This document shows positions 5,066 through 31,615 of a stretch of DNA of 33,705 nucleotides, one piece after another. Source of the DNA: Acidobacteriota bacterium (GTDB taxonomy: Bacteria; Acidobacteriota; Terriglobia; Terriglobales; Acidobacteriaceae); NCBI GenBank assembly GCA_021810625.1, contig JAJZIJ010000027.1, positions 1 to 33,705 on the forward strand, given 5' to 3'. The position numbers were made by a program, and so were the translations under genes. Below the pieces are notes generated by a model, which was not told the origin of the DNA, ran no database searches, and saw only the letters and a list, made by a program, of their open reading frames with translations. How positions within the stretch are numbered: position 1 is the first letter of the stretch; each line of letters begins with the position of its first letter.

Positions 5066-7003
5066 ATGGGAAAAATTATCGGAATCGATCTCGGAACCAC
5101 AAACTCCGTCGTAGCCGTCATGGAAGGCGGCGAGCCGAAGGTGATTGCCAATGAAGAGGGTGGTCGCACCACTCCCTCCGTGGTCGCCTTTACCAAGAGC
5201 GGGGAGCGACTAGTCGGCCAGGTGGCCAAGCGGCAGGCCATTACCAACCCGGAAAATACCATCTACTCCATCAAGCGCTTCATGGGGCGGCGTTTCAATG
5301 AAGTGAATGACGAGATGAAGATGGTTCCCTACAAGGTGAAGCAGCAGGGCGACCACCTCGTCGTCGAGGCGCAGGGTAAGGACTACACCCCGGCGGAAGT
5401 CTCGGCCATGATCCTGCAAAAGTTGAAGAAGGCGGCGGAAGATTATCTCGGCCAGTCTGTCACCGAGGCGGTCATCACGGTTCCTGCCTACTTTAACGAT
5501 GCACAGAGGCAGGCCACCAAGGACGCGGGCAAAGTCGCGGGTTTGGATGTGAAGCGCATTGTGAACGAGCCGACGGCGGCGGCGCTGGCTTACGGCCTCG
5601 ACAAGAAAAAAGAAGAGACCATCGTTGTGTACGACTTCGGCGGCGGAACGTTTGACGTGTCGATTCTCGAAGTCGGCGAGGGTGTCATTGAGGTCAAGTC
5701 CACCAATGGAGATACGCATCTGGGCGGCGACAACATCGACCAGCGCATTGTGGATTGGCTGATCGACGAGTTCAAAAAGGACGAGGGTCTCGACCTGCGC
5801 GCCAAGGGGAATGAGATGGCCCTGCAACGCCTGAAGGACGCGGCGGAAAAGGCCAAGATTGAACTCTCCACCACGGTGGAGACAGAGATCAATCTGCCCT
5901 TCGTCACTGCGGACGCGACCGGGCCAAAGCATCTGGTGAAGAAGCTGACCCGCGCCAAGCTGGAGCAGTTGGTCGAGGACATTTTGCAGCGCTCCATCGA
6001 GCCTTGCAAGATGGCGATGAAGGATGCGGGCATCGACATCAGCAAGATTGACGAAGTGGTTCTGGTTGGCGGACAGACCCGTATGCCGCGCATTCAGCAG
6101 ATCGTCAAAGACCTCTTTGGCAAAGACCCGCATCGCGGCGTCAATCCTGATGAAGTCGTCGCCATTGGCGCTGCCGTGCAGGCGGGCGTGCTTGCGGGCG
6201 AGGTCAAGGATCTATTGTTGCTCGACGTAACTCCCTTGACGCTGGCGATTGAAACACTGGGCAGCGTGGCCACGCCGATGATTCCGCGCAACACCACCAT
6301 TCCGACCAAGAAGACAGAGACGTTTTCGACGGCGGCGGACAATCAGACCGAAGTGGAGATTCACGTCCTGCAAGGCGAGCGCCCGCTGGCTCACCAGAAC
6401 CGCACGCTGGGCAAGTTCAAGCTGAGCGGCATTCCTCCGGCGCAGCGCGGCATTCCGCAGGTGCAGGTGACGTTTGACATCGACGCGAACGGCATTCTGA
6501 ACGTGACCGCGAAGGACATGGCCACGAACAAGGATCAGAAGATTACGATTACGTCGTCTTCGGGCCTCAGCAAGGAAGAGGTCGAGCGCATGGCGAAAGA
6601 AGCCGAGGCGCACGCTGCCGAGGACAAGGCCAAGCGCGAGGAGATTGAGGCGCGCAACTCGCTCGACAACCTGGTCTACAACATCGAAAAGATGTTGAAG
6701 GAGGGTGGCGACAAGGTGGAGGCTGCCGACAAGGGCGAAGTGGAAGCGGCGCTGGCCGAGGCCAAAAAGACACTCGAAGGCGAGCCGAGCGTGGCCGATC
6801 TGACTGCGGCGCGGGAGAAGCTGACCGCAGCCAGCCACAAACTGGCCGAGGCCATGTACAAGGCCAACGCAGCGGCCACACCGGGCGCGGAGAACGTCGC
6901 AGATGCGACGGCTTCAGGAGCAGGCGCATCGCCCACAGAAGAGTCCAAAAAGGACGAAGGCGTCATCGATGCCGAGTACGTGGACGTGGAAGACAAGAAG
7001 TAA
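5066..7003 (+). CDS. dnaK: Molecular chaperone DnaK (Hsp70)
   Basis: Cytosolic ATP-dependent chaperone that folds and protects proteins with DnaJ and GrpE. The 645-aa product is full length. It starts with the phosphate-binding loop GIDLGTTNS and has [17 protein letters not shown], the second ATPase signature [25 protein letters not shown], and the inter-domain linker [15 protein letters not shown]. The lidded C-terminus ends in [11 protein letters not shown], close to the usual EEVKD-like tail. A GAGGG ribosome binding site lies five bases before ATG 5066. The promoter carries a HAIR-like operator and the leader carries tandem hairpins. grpE is absent from the window, and dnaJ follows only after 1.8 kb of unrelated accessory DNA. 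Confidence 0.98.
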
Positions 7004-7103: not shown

Positions 7104-7277
7104 ATGAAATCGGAAACCGTCTGGAAGTGCGAACAGTTGCGTGCCGGAACCGTCTATGATCGCGATCTCTTCGACACACGCGAGGAGGCGGAGAACTATG
7201 CGCGCAGGCTGATGAGCGTCGCTCCCGATCTGTTCGTTCGCATCGAGCCGATGGACGTAAAGATGGTGTGGAACTGA
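7104..7277 (+). CDS. Small conserved-looking protein, 57 aa
   Basis: A short reading frame with a near-ideal ribosome binding site, AGGAGG (7092-7097), six bases before its ATG. The product begins MKSETVWKCEQLRAGTVYDR and continues with a charged segment, DTREEAENYARRL, then VAPDLFVRIEPMDVKMVWN. The composition is soluble and alternates aromatic and charged residues, as in a small folded domain. There is no signal peptide or membrane segment, and one cysteine at residue 9. It sits 100 bp after dnaK and ends 10 bp before the GIY-YIG gene, so it could be co-transcribed with either. I do not recognise the family. The good start signal and protein-like composition make it a probable real gene. 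Confidence 0.65.
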   Translation: MKSETVWKCEQLRAGTVYDRDLFDTREEAENYARRLMSVAPDLFVRIEPMDVKMVWN

Positions 7278-7287
7278 GGAAGGATGG

Positions 7288-7611
7288 ATGCGCGGAGGTA
7301 TGAAGGCAAGCTGGGTGTACATCCTCATGGGACGAACCGGAACGTTGTACACGGGAGTCACCAGCGACTTATACCGCAGGATGCTGGAGCATCGCGAGAA
7401 AGCTCATCCAGGATTCACTTCCAGGTATGACTGCAATCGACTGATCTACTACGAGGAGTATGCAGAGATCACGACAGCGATTGGCCGGGAGAAGCAGATC
7501 AAAGGCTGGACGCGGGCAAAAAAGATCGCGCTGATTGCAGAACTGAATCCAGGATGGAAGGATTTGTCGGAAGACTGGGGCAAGCCGATGGAGATTCCAG
7601 AGAACCGATAG
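7288..7611 (+). CDS. GIY-YIG (URI-type) nuclease domain protein
   Basis: Small single-domain member of the GIY-YIG endonuclease superfamily, of the YhbQ/UPF0213-like type, 107 aa. The order is the family's: WVYILMG (first motif strand, 9-15), LYTGVTSDLYRRMLEHR (the YTG of the second motif and the conserved arginine, about 20-36), YYEEY with the conserved glutamate, and GREKQIKGWTRAKKIALI. GAGGAAGG lies a few bases before ATG 7288. The last five codons and the stop lie inside the first copy of a tandemly duplicated palindromic repeat (7592-7754), so the C-terminus EIPENR is encoded by the repeat. Substrate and role are unknown. Confidence 0.85.
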   Translation: MRGGMKASWVYILMGRTGTLYTGVTSDLYRRMLEHREKAHPGFTSRYDCNRLIYYEEYAEITTAIGREKQIKGWTRAKKIALIAELNPGWKDLSEDWGKPMEIPENR

Positions 7612-7754
7612 AGCAAGGGTTTGCGCTGGGATTCTCTGGATTCTTCGCTCCCGTGGGTCGCTCAGAATGACATTTCTGTGGAGGATGCTGCAATTTTCCA
7701 CGAGAATGTCATTCTGAACAAGCGTAGCGAAGTGAAGAATCCAGACGGTGCTGG
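7592..7754 (+). repeat. Palindromic repeat element, copy 1
   Basis: A 163-bp unit that also occurs, almost unchanged, at 7812-7973. Inside it is a long imperfect hairpin. TCTGGATTCTTC (7635-7646) pairs with GAAGAATCCAGA (7734-7745), and TCAGAATGACATT (7662-7674) pairs with AATGTCATTCTGA (7705-7717). GTGGA (7678-7682) pairs with TCCAC (7697-7701) near the tip. The unit starts inside the 3' end of the GIY-YIG gene. Related sequences occur at 13045-13140 and 31380-31576. Confidence 0.9.
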
Positions 7755-7811
7755 AATGTGTCGGTGATGTTGGAGGTCAAGATGGATGGCTTGCAGGGTT
7801 CGCGCAAGGGC

Positions 7812-7973
7812 AGATTCCAGAGAACCGATAGGGCAAGGGTTGCGCCGGGATTCTCTGGATTCTTCGCTCCCGTGGGTCGCTCAGAATGACATTTCTGTGG
7901 GGGATGCTGCAATTTCCCACGAGAATGTCATTCTGAACAAGCGTAGCGAAGTGAAGAATCCAGACGGTGCTGG
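7812..7973 (+). repeat. Palindromic repeat element, copy 2
   Basis: Second copy of the unit at 7592-7754, with one single-base deletion and four substitutions by eye. Its hairpin spans 7854-7964. Two of the substitutions are compensatory: the tip pair GTGGA/TCCAC of copy 1 is GTGGG/CCCAC here, so an A-T pair has become G-C. The remaining gene-free DNA between 7974 and 8031 holds only the GGAGA ribosome binding site of the next gene. Confidence 0.9.
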
Positions 7974-8031: not shown

Positions 8032-8772
8032 ATGATTTGTTGGCTGCAAGAGTTTTTTAAGAATTGGGCAGTCGCAGTGGAAGCTGGCGCGACTCTGTTG
8101 CTCGTGATTGCCGCTGGATTTCAGTGGTTCGCCATGCGGGCGCAGGCAAAACAGGAGCGTGATCGCTGGAAGGAAGAAGATAAAATTCGCAAAGAGGCGA
8201 ATATGCCAAGGGCGAAATTCTGGTTTGAAGAGAATGGGGAGAGCTATGATTTGTGGTGCGCCAATCTGGGCACGGTAGCTTTCGTTCTTGGAAAAATCCA
8301 GATTGACTGCGTGCCATTCAAAGATGGTCAGAAGAATGTGCTGATTAGTGGCCAAACAACAATTTCTATCGACCATGTTGTTCCGGTCGGCGAAAAATGT
8401 AAACACCCGATCAAAAAGCAGGAAATACGGGAACGTTTAAGACGAAAGGATAACGGCTACAACTTTGAGTTCACTTTCCTGCTCGAAGGCCCTTCGGGCG
8501 ATCCTGTGAGATTGTCCGAGCCATATTTCTGGATGCCGGGGGACTTTGTGCGAGGTTTTCGGGGAGAAGTAACCGTAAACTGTCCAACGTGCAATAAGGT
8601 CATCTGCCCATTATCTGTGGAAAATCTGGGTTCAAAAAAAGAAGTTGAAGACCTGATTCATAGTGTACGTAGCGAATGCGCAGCAACATGCCCGGAGCAC
8701 ATATCGCACAACAGTAGGATCAGGATGCCTTACACGCCACCGGTGCTGACGGATGTACCCCGGTATGAGTGA
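8032..8772 (+). CDS. Hypothetical protein with one N-terminal membrane helix
   Basis: A 246-aa protein I cannot assign to a family. Residues about 13-34 (AVAVEAGATLLLVIAAGFQWF) form a single membrane helix. It is followed by a strongly charged stretch, RAQAKQERDRWKEEDKIRKEA, that looks like a short coiled coil, then a mostly soluble domain of mixed strands. The C-terminal third is cysteine-rich, with CPTCNKVICPL and CAATCPEH, so a metal site is possible. Its base composition is clearly more AT-rich than dnaK and dnaJ on either side, and it lies directly after a duplicated repeat, which suggests acquisition by transfer. GGAGA lies about nine bases before ATG 8032. Confidence 0.7.
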   Translation: MICWLQEFFKNWAVAVEAGATLLLVIAAGFQWFAMRAQAKQERDRWKEEDKIRKEANMPRAKFWFEENGESYDLWCANLGTVAFVLGKIQIDCVPFKDGQKNVLISGQTTISIDHVVPVGEKCKHPIKKQEIRERLRRKDNGYNFEFTFLLEGPSGDPVRLSEPYFWMPGDFVRGFRGEVTVNCPTCNKVICPLSVENLGSKKEVEDLIHSVRSECAATCPEHISHNSRIRMPYTPPVLTDVPRYE

Positions 8773-8823: not shown

Positions 8824-10044
8824 ATGGCCACACAGACCAAAGACTATTACGGCTTGCTCGGAGTGAAGAAGTCGGCCACGGCGGAGGAGATTCGCAAGGC
8901 CTTCCGCAAGCTGGCGCGCAAATATCACCCGGACGTGAACCCCGGCGACAAAAAGGCCGAGGAGCGCTTCAAGGAGATGTCCGAGGCCAACGATGTTCTG
9001 AGCGATCCGAAGAAGCGCAAAATCTACGATCAGTTCGGCTTCTACTCCGACAACATTGACCCGGCGGCGGCTGAGGCGGCGGCACGCGGCGCGCGGCCCG
9101 GCGCGGGCGGACAGACGGGCACTCCCTTTGATTTTGGCGGCTTTGATTTCTCTGATTTTTCTGAAGCGCAGCACTCGCGCAGTGGCAGAGCCAGCAGTGC
9201 TGCGGCTGGACAGTCGGCTGGACAGTCTTCCTGGGGCAGCTTCCGCGACATCTTTTCCGGCGCATTTCATGGCGGCGGGCATCGCGAAGAGACGCCGCAG
9301 CCGGGCACCGATCTGGAATATCAGGTAAGCGTCGATTTCTGGACTTCGATTCGCGGCGGCACGGTCAAGTTGCAGGTGACGCGCAAGGATATTTGTCCCA
9401 CTTGCAAAGGAAGAAGCAACAGCGGTGGCGACAGCATGTGTCAGGAGTGTGACGGCACCGGCCAGGTGACGCAGATGGGCGGGCGGATGAAGTTTAACCT
9501 GCAATGTCCGCGCTGCGATGGCACGGGCAAGGTACGTTCCGCCTGCGCGACCTGTGGCGGCGAGGGCGCAGTGGCGCGTGCCGAGACGATGGAGTTTCGC
9601 GTGAAGCCGGGAACGCGCGACGGCCAGCGCATTCGACTGGCGGGCAAGGGCAATGCAGGCACGCATGGCGGCGCGATGGGCGATTTGTATCTCATCATGC
9701 GCATTGGCGCGCACCCGGTCTTTACGCGCAGTGGGGATGATATTTATCTCTCCGTACCGGTGACGGTGAGTGAGGCTGCGCTGGGCGCGAAGGTGGATGT
9801 GCCGACCATTGATGGCCGGGCGCAGTTGAAGATTCCCCCCGGCACGCAGAACGGCCAGAAACTGCGTATGCGCGAAAAGGGAGTTTTCTCCGCTGTGCGC
9901 GAGGGGACGCGCGGCGATCAAATTGTCGAAGTGCAGATCGTAGTACCCAGGGTGCAGGATGAGCGTTCCAAGGAGATTTTGCGCGAGCTGGCGCGACTCA
10001 ACCCGGAAGACCCCCGGCAGGAGTTGCTGACGAGGGTCGATTAA
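8824..10044 (+). CDS. dnaJ: Chaperone DnaJ (type A J-protein)
   Basis: Co-chaperone that delivers substrates to DnaK and stimulates its ATPase. The 406-aa product has an N-terminal J domain (about 6-72) with HPD at 35-37. A long alanine/glycine/serine-rich linker with GGFDFSDF and [13 protein letters not shown] follows. The zinc-binding region has all four C-x-x-C-x-G-type repeats ([32 protein letters not shown]); the first ends in RS, not xG. C-terminal substrate-binding domains include [18 protein letters not shown]. No strong Shine-Dalgarno sequence precedes ATG 8824. It is separated from dnaK by accessory genes and converges with the DUF3617-like gene with six bases between stops. Confidence 0.95.
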
Positions 10045-10775: not shown

Positions 10776-10838
10776 GGGGCACCGTATATGGGCACTCGGA
10801 TTTTTATTATTCCAGTGGAAGAAAACGCAGTGGGCCGT

Positions 10839-12659
10839 TTAGGTTTGCAGGGCGGCGGCATTGCGACGCGGTCTGCGGTTGGCCTGCAAGATTTTCTTGC
10901 GAATGCGCAGGCTCTTCGGCGTGACCTCGACCATTTCGTCGTCTGCGATGAACTCGATAGACTGCTCCAGATTCAAGGGTCGGAATGGAACCAGGCGAAT
11001 CGCCTCGTCCGCCGAGGAGGCGCGCATGTTGGTCAGTTTCTTCTCACGAACAGCGTTCACGTCCAGATCGTTGTCGCGGGAGTGTTCGCCGACGATCATG
11101 CCCTCGTAGACCTCCACGCCAGGGCCGACAAAGAGCACGCCGCGCTCCTGCAATCCATCGAGCGAGTAGGTGGTGGTGCTGCCAGCGCGATCCGCAATCA
11201 ACGCGCCCGTCTGACGCTGCGGAATTTCACCCTGATGCGGCATGTATCCGTCAAAGAGCGTGTTCATCACGATGGTGCCGCGAGTTTCGGTCAGCATCTC
11301 GCTGCGCAAGCCAATCAAACCGCGACTGGGAATGCGAAAGACCAAACGCACGCGGCCATAGCCGTGGTTGTGCATCCGCACCATCTCCGCCTTGCGCGGG
11401 CCAAGGCGCTCCATGACCACGCCAACGAAATTTTCGGGGATGTCGATGGTGAGTTGCTCGACCGGCTCCATCAGCTTGCCGTCCACGCGACGGGTGACAA
11501 TCTCCGGGCGGCCCACCATCAGCTCAAAGCCCTCGCGGCGCATCATTTCAATCAAAATGGCGAGTTGCAATTCGCCGCGTCCCAGCACTTTGAAGCTGTC
11601 CGGGCTGCCCGTATCTTCGACGCGAATGGAAACGTTGGTGAGCAGCTCTTTCTCCAGCCGCTCGCGCAGATTGCGCGAGGTGACATACTGGCCTTCGCGT
11701 CCGGCAAAGGGAGAATTGTTGACGGAGAATTGAATCGCAATCGTCGGCTCGTCAATGGTGATCGTCGGCAGCGGCGCAGGATTTTCAACGCTGGTGATGG
11801 TCTCGCCGATGGTGATGCCGGGAATGCCAGCAACGGCGACGATATCGCCTGTCTCGGTGGCTTCCGTGTCGATGCGTTTCAATCCGCTAAAGGTGAAGAG
11901 CTTGGTGACCTTTGTCTTTTCCAGGGAGCCGTCGCGCTTGGAGATGGCAACTTCGTCGCCAGAGTGCAGCGTGCCATTAAAGACGCGCGCAATGGCCAGA
12001 CGCCCCAGGTAGTCGGAGTAATCGAGATTGGTGACAAGAATCTGCAAGGGGCCGTCGGCATCGCCCTTGGCTGGCGGAATGGTCTCAATGATCTTGTGAT
12101 ACAGCGGTTGCAGGTCAACACCGTGGGTCTTGATATCCATCGTTGCCGTGCCCAGCTTGGCGTTGGTGTAGATGACGGGAAAGTCCAGTTGGTCTTCCGT
12201 CGCGTCGAGATCAATAAAGAGGTCGTAGACCTCGTTGAGCACCTCTTGCGTGCGCGCATCGGGACGGTCGATTTTGTTGATAACAAGAATCGGCAGCAGC
12301 TTGGCTTCCAGCGCCTTGGAGAGAACATAGCGCGTCTGCGGCAGCGGGCCTTCGCTGGCATCCACCAGCAACATGACGCCATCGACCATCTTCAGGGCGC
12401 GTTCGACTTCGCCGCCAAAATCGGCGTGGCCGGGCGTATCGACGATGTTGATCTTGGTGTCCTCAAAAAAGATGGCCGTGTTCTTGGCGAGGATCGTAAT
12501 GCCACGCTCGCGCTCCAGATCGTTGGAGTCCATAACGCGATCCACCACCGTTTCATTGGAGCGGAAGGTGCCGCTTTGACGCAGCATGGCGTCAACCAGT
12601 GTGGTCTTTCCGTGATCGACGTGGGCGATAATGGCGATGTTGCGAATGACACGAGACAC
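10839..12659 (-). CDS. typA: Ribosome-associated GTPase TypA/BipA
   Basis: Translational GTPase related to EF-G and LepA that binds ribosomes and is needed for growth under cold and other stresses. The 606-aa product is full length. G1 is AHVDHGKTT (12-20), the switch region is RGITI, G3 is [10 protein letters not shown] and G4 is NKID. Domain II, the EF-G-like domains ([34 protein letters not shown]) and the BipA-specific C-terminus ([15 protein letters not shown]) follow. The start is GTG at 12659; AGGA lies about 12 bases upstream and no better start is visible. The gene stands alone between a palindrome and tRNA-Arg. Confidence 0.96.
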
Positions 12660-12925
12660 GATGCGTTCGGTTCCTAACTTAAAAGATTTTCAACTGTGAT
12701 TGTGAAGACAGATTCACGCCGCCGTGGAGGGAGCGGGGAAATTTCAGCACACGTCTAAGTTTACCGCAGAATGTGGACATCGCGCTGCCGGAACAGGAAA
12801 AGATGTCGCTGCGCGTTTTCATGCGCCGCGTTGCCATCCCCCGTTATGCGAGGAACGGGCACGTCCTACGTGAGAGGAGCACCCCATGCAGAAGCGGGAA
12901 GCTCCGTGATAGCCTCGTAGAAGAT

Positions 12926-13002
12926 GCGCCCGTAGCTCAGATGGATAGAGCGAACGCCTCCGAAGCGTTAGGTCACAAGTTCGAATCTTGTCGGGCGCAC
13001 CA
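12926..13002 (+). tRNA. tRNA-Arg (anticodon CCG)
   Basis: A complete 77-nt tRNA with the CCA end encoded. The acceptor stem GCGCCCG (12926-12932) pairs with CGGGCGC (12992-12998). The anticodon stem AACGC/GCGTT encloses the loop CTCCGAA, giving anticodon CCG, which reads arginine codon CGG. The T arm contains GTTCGAAT. It is followed directly by a degraded palindromic repeat and lies in the gap between typA (-) and the LpxH-like gene (+). The 266 bases between typA and the tRNA show no gene. Confidence 0.96.
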
Positions 13003-13044
13003 GAATTTTCTCCGAACAGGAGATTCCGGGTAGGATTGTCCCTC

Positions 13045-13140
13045 TGAACGAAGCGTCACGGAGTGAAGGGAGGCATTCAGGGAATGCTGGAGACATAAGA
13101 CGAAGCAAAAACCGTCTGGATTCTTCGGTCGCTGGAAGGT
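13045..13140. repeat. Degraded member of the palindromic repeat family
   Basis: The segment CTGAACGAAGCG...GAGTGAAGGG near 13045-13070 resembles one arm of the elements at 7592 and 7812. CGTCTGGATTCTTCGGTCGC near 13114-13134 resembles the other arm. Between them lies a perfect GCATTC (13073-13078)/GAATGC (13082-13087) hairpin. The copy is diverged and partial. It lies 3' of tRNA-Arg. Confidence 0.6.
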
Positions 13141-31319: not shown

Positions 31320-31379
31320 CAGTCGGTGGGTTTGAAATCTTCGACAAGGAACACATACGGTGTCTGTACGAAAATGGAG

Positions 31380-31576
31380 TCATTCTGAACCCTTCGACTG
31401 CGCTCAGGATAAACTCCGCGCAGCGAAGTGAAGAATCCCGAAGGTGCCTATACAGAAAGGGTGTCATTCTGAACGACGCGTAGCGGAGTGAAGAATCCAG
31501 AAGGTCTGTGCTTCGTCGATACAGCCATCACCCTCTGGATTCTTCGTCGTCTGCTTCGCAGGACTCCTCAGAATGA
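31380..31576. repeat. Composite palindromic repeat between convergent genes
   Basis: Three arms of the repeat family. A half-copy TCATTCTGA...GAAGAATCC spans 31380-31438. A second arm of the same orientation runs TCATTCTGA (31464-31472) to GAAGAATCCAGA (31490-31501). The inverse arm runs TCTGGATTCTTC (31534-31545) to TCAGAATGA (31568-31576). The second and third arms can fold into one long hairpin. The element fills most of the 296-bp gap between the GH3 gene (+) and the antitoxin gene (-), where it may also stop transcription from both sides. Confidence 0.8.
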
Positions 31577-31615
31577 CTCACTCTGATCTTTAAGCCATCC
31601 CAACCAGAAAATCAT

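Follow-up and report, generated by a model that had tools for sequence, protein, structure and literature searches.

A small GIY-YIG nuclease as a candidate mobilising enzyme for CGTC-type REP hairpins

A gene for a GIY-YIG nuclease of about 95 residues lies beside or between tagged REP hairpins in many bacterial phyla, and this makes the nuclease a strong candidate for the role of the enzyme, so far missing, by which such REPs are spread. The association of the gene with the hairpins is real and broad, and gene and hairpins behave as a unit that is absent from orthologous sites, has been duplicated, and carries matching hairpins. We think it most likely that tagged hairpins are nicked by the nuclease, which in this way would spread the hairpins as well as the gene that encodes it. 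Computation, starting from the window, a 33,705-nucleotide stretch of acidobacterial DNA, shows that gene and hairpins are paired in several phyla, and also shows the tag, the compensated stems, the presence, absence and duplication of the unit, and the conserved residues. The CGTC-type REPs, including dRS3 of Neisseria and the RPE repeats of Rickettsia, form a widespread class of short repeats, and the 2013 survey in which they were defined (PMC3733652) leaves open what enzyme makes them. The candidate is tiny and has a predicted substrate, which makes the origin of these REPs testable at the bench.

The nuclease gene and its repeats in the window

The gene (7288–7611, plus strand) encodes a 107-residue product whose sole Pfam match is to PF01541, the GIY-YIG family (E=4.6e-15, 56.1 bits against a cut-off of 22.6); no NCBIfam profile matches it. 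The ORF start at 7288 lies close to an internal methionine at 7300, near which the proteins of close relatives start. The gene has dnaK (5066–7003) on one side and a DnaJ-family gene (8824–10044) on the other. Its upstream neighbour is a 57-residue ORF (7104–7277, plus strand), a marker of the site that is also present at the empty site of a genome of the same genus (G012), and downstream is an ORF with no Pfam match (8032–8772, plus strand) that likewise has a counterpart in G012. Apart from this gene, the whole genome holds a single PF01541 match, which lies in a 641-residue frame that is probably UvrC. A 629-residue ORF at 10788–12674 of the window matches neither Pfam nor NCBIfam profiles.

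Alignment of 41 sequences shows G23, R31, H35, E68 and N87 to be invariant and Y11 and Y21 to be conserved in at least 90%; by comparison with known GIY-YIG members we take the Tyr, Tyr, Arg, Glu and Asn to be catalytic-type residues. The 38 aligned REP-linked proteins share the motif REKxxKxWxR and a C-terminal NPxWxDL, and the tryptophan of the motif is missing in a few others, such as those of loci L145 and L148. The AlphaFold model of the window nuclease (pLDDT 88.7) is closest to GIY-YIG structures. A structure search gave the UPF0213 protein BH0048 (1zg2) as best hit, with E=1.1e-4 and as the sole match below 0.001, followed by Slx1-Slx4, a branched-DNA nuclease, with E=6e-3. This likeness of the modelled fold to Slx1-Slx4 suits a hairpin substrate, but is no proof of one. 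The HUH motif and catalytic tyrosine of IS200/IS605 transposases are absent from the window nuclease, in which only PF01541 is matched.

The first-pass annotation placed the last codons of the nuclease inside the first copy of a repeat of roughly 163 bp that recurs about 220 bp further on, and this is borne out. The final 20 nt of the ORF fall inside copy 1 (7592–7754), and copy 2 (7812–7973), a tandem duplicate, carries a 20-nt relic of the 3' end of the gene; the direct repeat aligns as 7592–7621 plus 7618–7754 with 7812–7841 plus 7837–7973, at 97% identity and with start-to-start distances of 220 and 219 bp. Each copy consists of two inverted GTC-tagged units that read, from the tag, GTCATTCTGA-(hairpin)-GAAGAATCCAGA. 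In copy 1 these are hairpin a (7635–7671, minus strand, its GTC tag being the complement of 7669–7671) and hairpin b (7708–7745, plus strand), and in copy 2 they lie at 7854–7890 (minus strand) and 7927–7964 (plus strand). The two units of one copy fold jointly into a single long DNA hairpin, which in copy 1 occupies 7635–7745; none of 200 shuffles of the 137-nt core of copy 1 was as stable when folded as single-stranded DNA (z = -5.75). The unpaired tail of the window REP (...GAATCCAG) fits CCA. There is no REP to the left of the window's own copy of the gene.

The same annotation reported this palindromic repeat family from elsewhere in the window, and solo REPs of the family indeed occupy 31379–31441 and 31463–31500 on the plus strand and, inverted, 31534–31577 on the minus strand. 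A degenerate trace of the family (13038–13137) begins about 35 nt downstream of a tRNA-Arg gene (12926–13002). With the 137-nt repeat as query, the window's own genome gives at least 81 matches at E≤0.01, spread over many contigs, a count in which the two strands of one palindromic site are entered separately and for which 40 of 68 first-look candidates were scored. The tagged core is present in 28 copies at no more than two mismatches.

Association of nuclease genes with tagged hairpins

Our cross-phylum set comprises the best 80 of 193 relatives of the nuclease, drawn from many phyla. A first scan of the 400 nt around each gene with the motif GTCATTCTGAGCGAAGCGAAG, allowing up to five substitutions, was positive at 61 of these 80 loci, and the reversed motif gave five hits over the whole of them. 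Because this motif was picked from the window's own repeat family, we turned to a second rule that uses only the tag and a hairpin stem. An early count took 94 loci, namely all 80 of the cross-phylum set and the 14 of 29 family loci for which plus-strand hits had been kept; the other 15 were used later.

Under the second rule, 134 of 167 relatives have a GTCA-tagged hairpin no more than 200 nt from the gene, whereas 44 of 306 distant segments taken from these loci contain one. The counts are 69/80 against 21/141 in the cross-phylum set, 19/29 against 8/53 in the Acidobacteriaceae, 24/29 against 9/55 in Proteobacteria, and 22/29 against 6/57 in Bacteroidota, where the last three sets are the best-scoring loci, at most 30 per search, and at least one locus is common to the family and cross-phylum sets (L084 and L003 appear to be identical). 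GTCA ranks first of the 256 possible tags in each of the four sets. The control genes, 20 low-scoring relatives from the same proteobacterial search that we take to be of the UPF0213/YhbQ class, have such a hairpin in one case. A further control used the other intergenic gaps of the 80 cross-phylum loci, 55 of 222 of which contain the hairpin, compared with 69 of 80 genes (p=2.5e-22). The RAYT-like pairing with a GIY-YIG enzyme that had been proposed from the window alone is thus supported and generalises, and in the comparison set beforehand such GIY-YIG genes do lie next to the repeats beyond chance.

With a stricter stem rule and the tag GTC, 66/80, 23/29 and 20/29 loci are positive in the cross-phylum, proteobacterial and Bacteroidota sets, respectively. 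The Acidobacteriaceae reach 9/29 and GTC ranks 11 of 64 tags, so is not singled out there, probably because of a GA mismatch in the stems; by eye, their flanks show a GTCATCCTGAG-type repeat despite this failure. A loose rule with the tag GTC alone was rejected for its high background (70/141, 28/53 and 34/55 distant segments). Phage records contain only distant relatives of the nuclease (14 records), none covering 80% of the query.

The sequence of the stem differs between genomes and its pairing is kept. Among 75 distinct hairpins, found with the tag, two GA steps and one T fixed and counted as distinct 24-mers, one pair is T-A in 30, C-G in 26 and G-C in five, another is G-C in 39 and A-T in 20, and all four free arm pairs are formed in 49. 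Acidobacterial stems have a 5-bp base, a conserved GA/AG mismatch and a variable top, and by eye many proteobacterial copies have a stem of 8–9 bp starting with AT and a loop of 4–5 nt. Many copies have an apical GCGNAGC, a sequence that forms a DNA mini-hairpin of unusual stability. Of 150 Proteobacteria, 59 have a pattern with ATCCA at its end, and many non-proteobacterial copies end in CT rather than CCA. At one proteobacterial locus (L162) the flanking repeat GTCATACCGACGCAAGTCGGTATCCA is identical on both sides of the gene and inverted, and at another (L157) it is of a different type, CGTCATTCCCGCGAAGGCGGGAATCCA. Hairpins near the nuclease genes of Rhizobium tumorigenes (L197) and Sinorhizobium sp. 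C101 (L201) have a CCTC-type tag (CTCATTCCTGTG...) instead of CGTC, a variant that PMC3733652 mentions too.

At the level of whole genomes, equal frequency of the repeats with and without the gene was the outcome that the first-pass annotation had named as adverse, and it is contradicted clearly in Proteobacteria and weakly in the window's own family. Of 150 proteobacterial genomes, at least four repeats are present in 20 of 36 with a close nuclease and in 10 of 114 without (p=1.7e-8), where the gene-positive class (E≤1e-9) was set after the hits were seen and repeats were counted with one pattern that covers part of the REP variety; any nuclease match at all is present in 67 of the 150. For 120 genomes of the window's family the median number of repeats is 8 with the gene and 2.5 without (Mann-Whitney p=0.015), and the comparison at ten or more repeats is not significant (p=0.18). 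Some REP-rich genomes do lack the gene: G181 and G197, both proteobacterial, G113 and G012 have 175, 54, 41 and 28 repeats, and their sole GIY-YIG match is UvrC-sized. Equal frequency holds in part, as would also be expected if the enzyme is often lost.

Among the REP-bearing genomes, 16 without a close nuclease were compared, and REPs therefore persist without the gene. In nine of these the only PF01541 match is in a frame of at least 600 residues, probably UvrC; four others (G225, G264, G268 and G284) encode, in addition, a small GIY-YIG protein of a different class. The matches in G013 and G289 are weak and partial, in frames of 250–294 residues (G013 also has a UvrC-sized one), and G052 has no PF01541 match. 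The proteobacterial genome G284 holds 177 REPs of one pattern, its small GIY-YIG gene being accompanied by a UvrC-sized match.

Empty sites and duplicated copies

A search for empty sites, suggested together with the original observation, found them in G012 and between sufB and sufC of four relatives of Azospirillum lipoferum. In G012 an ORF 89% identical to the upstream neighbour is followed by 38 nt and then by the counterpart of the downstream ORF (35% protein identity, E=9e-38), and the 3.2-kb stretch at this orthologous site contains neither the nuclease nor a copy of the motif at up to five substitutions. More distant Acidobacteria (L003, L004, L006 and L007) have the gene at the window's locus, which makes a loss in G012 no less likely than a gain in the window genome.

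A plasmid collection yielded 39 nuclease records, including A. lipoferum 4B, S. meliloti, N. aromaticivorans and N. gonorrhoeae. The A. lipoferum gene lies between sufB and sufC and is flanked on each side by CGTCATCCCCGCGAAGGCGGGGATCCAG-type pairs, and the four relatives, with flanks 90–96% identical, have neither the gene nor CGTCATCCCCGCGAAGGCGGGGATCCAG-type repeats at that site; Azospirillum B510 has another, unrelated-looking hairpin there, and the empty counterparts in A. ramasamyi and A. oryzae are free of REPs. The gltA-lpxB interval of S. meliloti Ak57 contains the gene and, between REPs, a 5'-truncated second copy (L195, 1164–1330), and the same interval of Sinorhizobium K101 contains REPs without the gene. 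The truncated copy, just upstream of the intact one, is a decayed unit.

Genomes contain up to eight or nine copies of the nuclease gene, and in two of the three within-genome cases examined the duplicate ends at or near the tags. Of three copies in G107, the most distant is like the others only over a stretch that starts at its left tag and stops about 10 nt past its right tag, and the flanks beyond the tags are unrelated. In G383, two copies separated by about 6.4 kb show no differences in the ORF or the right REP, with identity ending 3 nt after the right tag; on the left they begin to diverge inside the REP. In a G363 pair, likeness starts about 10 nt ahead of the left tag and runs about 60 nt past the right one. 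Inspection by eye of the Azospirillum/Sinorhizobium, G107, G383 and G363 alignments revealed no recognisable target-site duplication.

The upstream REP arm is more like the downstream arm of its own gene than like the downstream arms of the genome's other copies (9.65 against 7.92 of 12 positions; 0/2000 permutations), a test that used 40 copies from nine multi-copy genomes, with one gene copy per fetched stretch; local duplication of repeats could add to this matching. In the cross-phylum set the tag is outermost for 84 of 121 nearest REPs, and in the other three sets the same orientation (19/29, 25/43 and 24/39) is not significant. At 31 of 52 two-sided cross-phylum loci the nearest REPs are inverted with tags outermost, and units measured on the nearest tag-outward REPs span 342–555 bp. 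Similar nucleases were not found to go with similar REPs within genomes (rho 0.18; 199 of 500 permutations as high), in a test for which automated REP detection is noisy.

In G140, a member of the Kryptoniota, a 127–135-bp repeat that is 98–100% identical between copies encloses a REP pair near several nuclease copies (L228, L230, L231 and L232). It has inverted ends of its own, GAGGTTGTCC...GGACAGCCTC, and looks like a MITE that captured REPs; we set it aside.

A mobilising enzyme, its alternatives and known systems

We favour, with some reserve, the reading that a REP family has this nuclease as its dedicated enzyme, which would mobilise REPs and its own gene and so be the GIY-YIG counterpart to the RAYT transposase. 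The wider proposal, that it is the missing mobilising enzyme of CGTC-type REPs in many phyla and that the REP-nuclease-REP units of ~340–550 bp are autonomous and move by hairpin nicking without a known transposase, we hold at even chances; such units, if autonomous, would be smaller than known autonomous insertion sequences. The basic unit would be a REP hairpin with a 5' (C/T)GTC tag, the ~95-residue nuclease gene and an inverted REP hairpin, with solo REPs and inverted REP pairs as its non-autonomous satellites. A REP or REP pair may extrude as a hairpin, chiefly in single-stranded DNA at replication forks, whereupon the nuclease would bind it, reading tag and hairpin, and nick at or near the tag. 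Host replication and repair could then copy the REP-bounded segment elsewhere, often to a place that already holds a REP.

This reading is weakened by the REP-rich genomes without the gene, the weak co-occurrence in the window's family, the overrun of the tags in G363, the absence of a significant orientation in three sets, the null correlation between nucleases and REPs, the failure of the strict rule in Acidobacteriaceae, the lack of a recognised target duplication, and the missing left REP in the window. It also counts against it that GIY-YIG enzymes are hydrolytic nucleases and are not known to act in strand transfer.

The main rival, to which we give perhaps half as much credence or less, is homing into repeats: a free-standing selfish gene resembling a homing endonuclease would cut REPs, and recombinational repair would copy it by using the flanking REPs as homology arms, the REPs themselves being spread by something else and a mere target. 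Sinorhizobium K101 fits this, with REPs alone where S. meliloti Ak57 has the gene and its truncated copy, as do the G383 copies, whose divergence begins within the left REP as though this REP held the left junction, and the many REPs but few nuclease genes of individual genomes. However, the empty counterparts of some filled sites (G012, A. ramasamyi and A. oryzae) have no REP, the G107 copies cease to be alike at or near the tags and have unrelated flanks, and the spread of the REPs is left unexplained. Mobilisation by the nuclease is the most economical reading.

It is improbable that the nuclease is an immobile host maintenance enzyme that resolves or trims REP cruciforms, with its gene kept near REPs by regulation or selection. 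Slx1, the nearest fold outside UPF0213, is a structure-specific nuclease, and long-term residence in lineages is possible given the protein tree (74 proteins, six of the 80 being left out as short or containing stops), on which phylum labels are clustered, with 20 changes against a minimum of 15; since the tree is also poorly resolved, we claim no transfer between phyla. Maintenance sits poorly, however, with the gene and its REPs being present or absent together and recently duplicated together, with eight or nine copies per genome, with intrusion into the suf operon, and with the many genomes that lack the nuclease. Chance, or a shared intergenic hot spot where REPs gather and the gene happens to be, deserves almost no credence, for although REPs are common in the same genomes, as the distant segments and intergenic gaps attest, the excess over those gaps, the single positive among 20 UPF0213/YhbQ-like genes and the matching of upstream and downstream arms within loci all speak against it.

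The closest known repeats are the CGTC-tagged REPs of Di Nocera et al. 2013 (PMC3733652), a superfamily including dRS3, RPE-4 and RPE-6, which are described there as having a CGTC or TGTC tag (CCTC in some), a stem of 8–9 bp usually starting with AT, a loop of 4–5 nt and a CC(A) tail, and as not tied to transposase genes and apparently without a dedicated transposase. The hairpins described here share the CGTC or TGTC tag ahead of the stem, but have a GIY-YIG gene flanked by them, and A. lipoferum, S. meliloti, N. aromaticivorans and Neisseria, all named in that paper, carry the nuclease. Acidobacterial stems differ in their conserved GA/AG mismatch, and the N. aromaticivorans pair reads GTCG, not GTCA. 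Among the literature matches listed, titles and the openings of abstracts did not reveal the link between nuclease and REP; preprints and most subscription papers lie outside that scope, and the link may be in print elsewhere.

UPF0213/YhbQ-type GIY-YIG proteins have the size and fold of the window nuclease, but are not REP-flanked in 19 of the 20 cases tested, and REKxxKxWxR and NPxWxDL are shared by the REP-linked class. Free-standing GIY-YIG homing endonucleases are likewise selfish-looking nuclease genes of the same catalytic-domain family, but target one conserved gene rather than a dispersed hairpin repeat. Insertion sequences have a transposase, inverted ends and a target-site duplication; here the nearest REPs are inverted with tags outermost at part of the loci, the nuclease has no transposase domain, and no target duplication was recognised. 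Movement of the proposed kind, if true, would mean a transposition-like mechanism that relies on a GIY-YIG nuclease. The nearest parallel is REP/RAYT (TnpA-REP, REPtron), in which tagged imperfect palindromes likewise flank the gene of a small dedicated DNA enzyme and also occur in the genome as numerous solo copies and inverted pairs. The RAYT enzyme, however, is an HUH tyrosine transposase and its tag is GTAG, whereas here the enzyme is a GIY-YIG nuclease and the tag (C/T)GTC, suggesting that pairs of REP and enzyme arose more than once, with unrelated enzymes.
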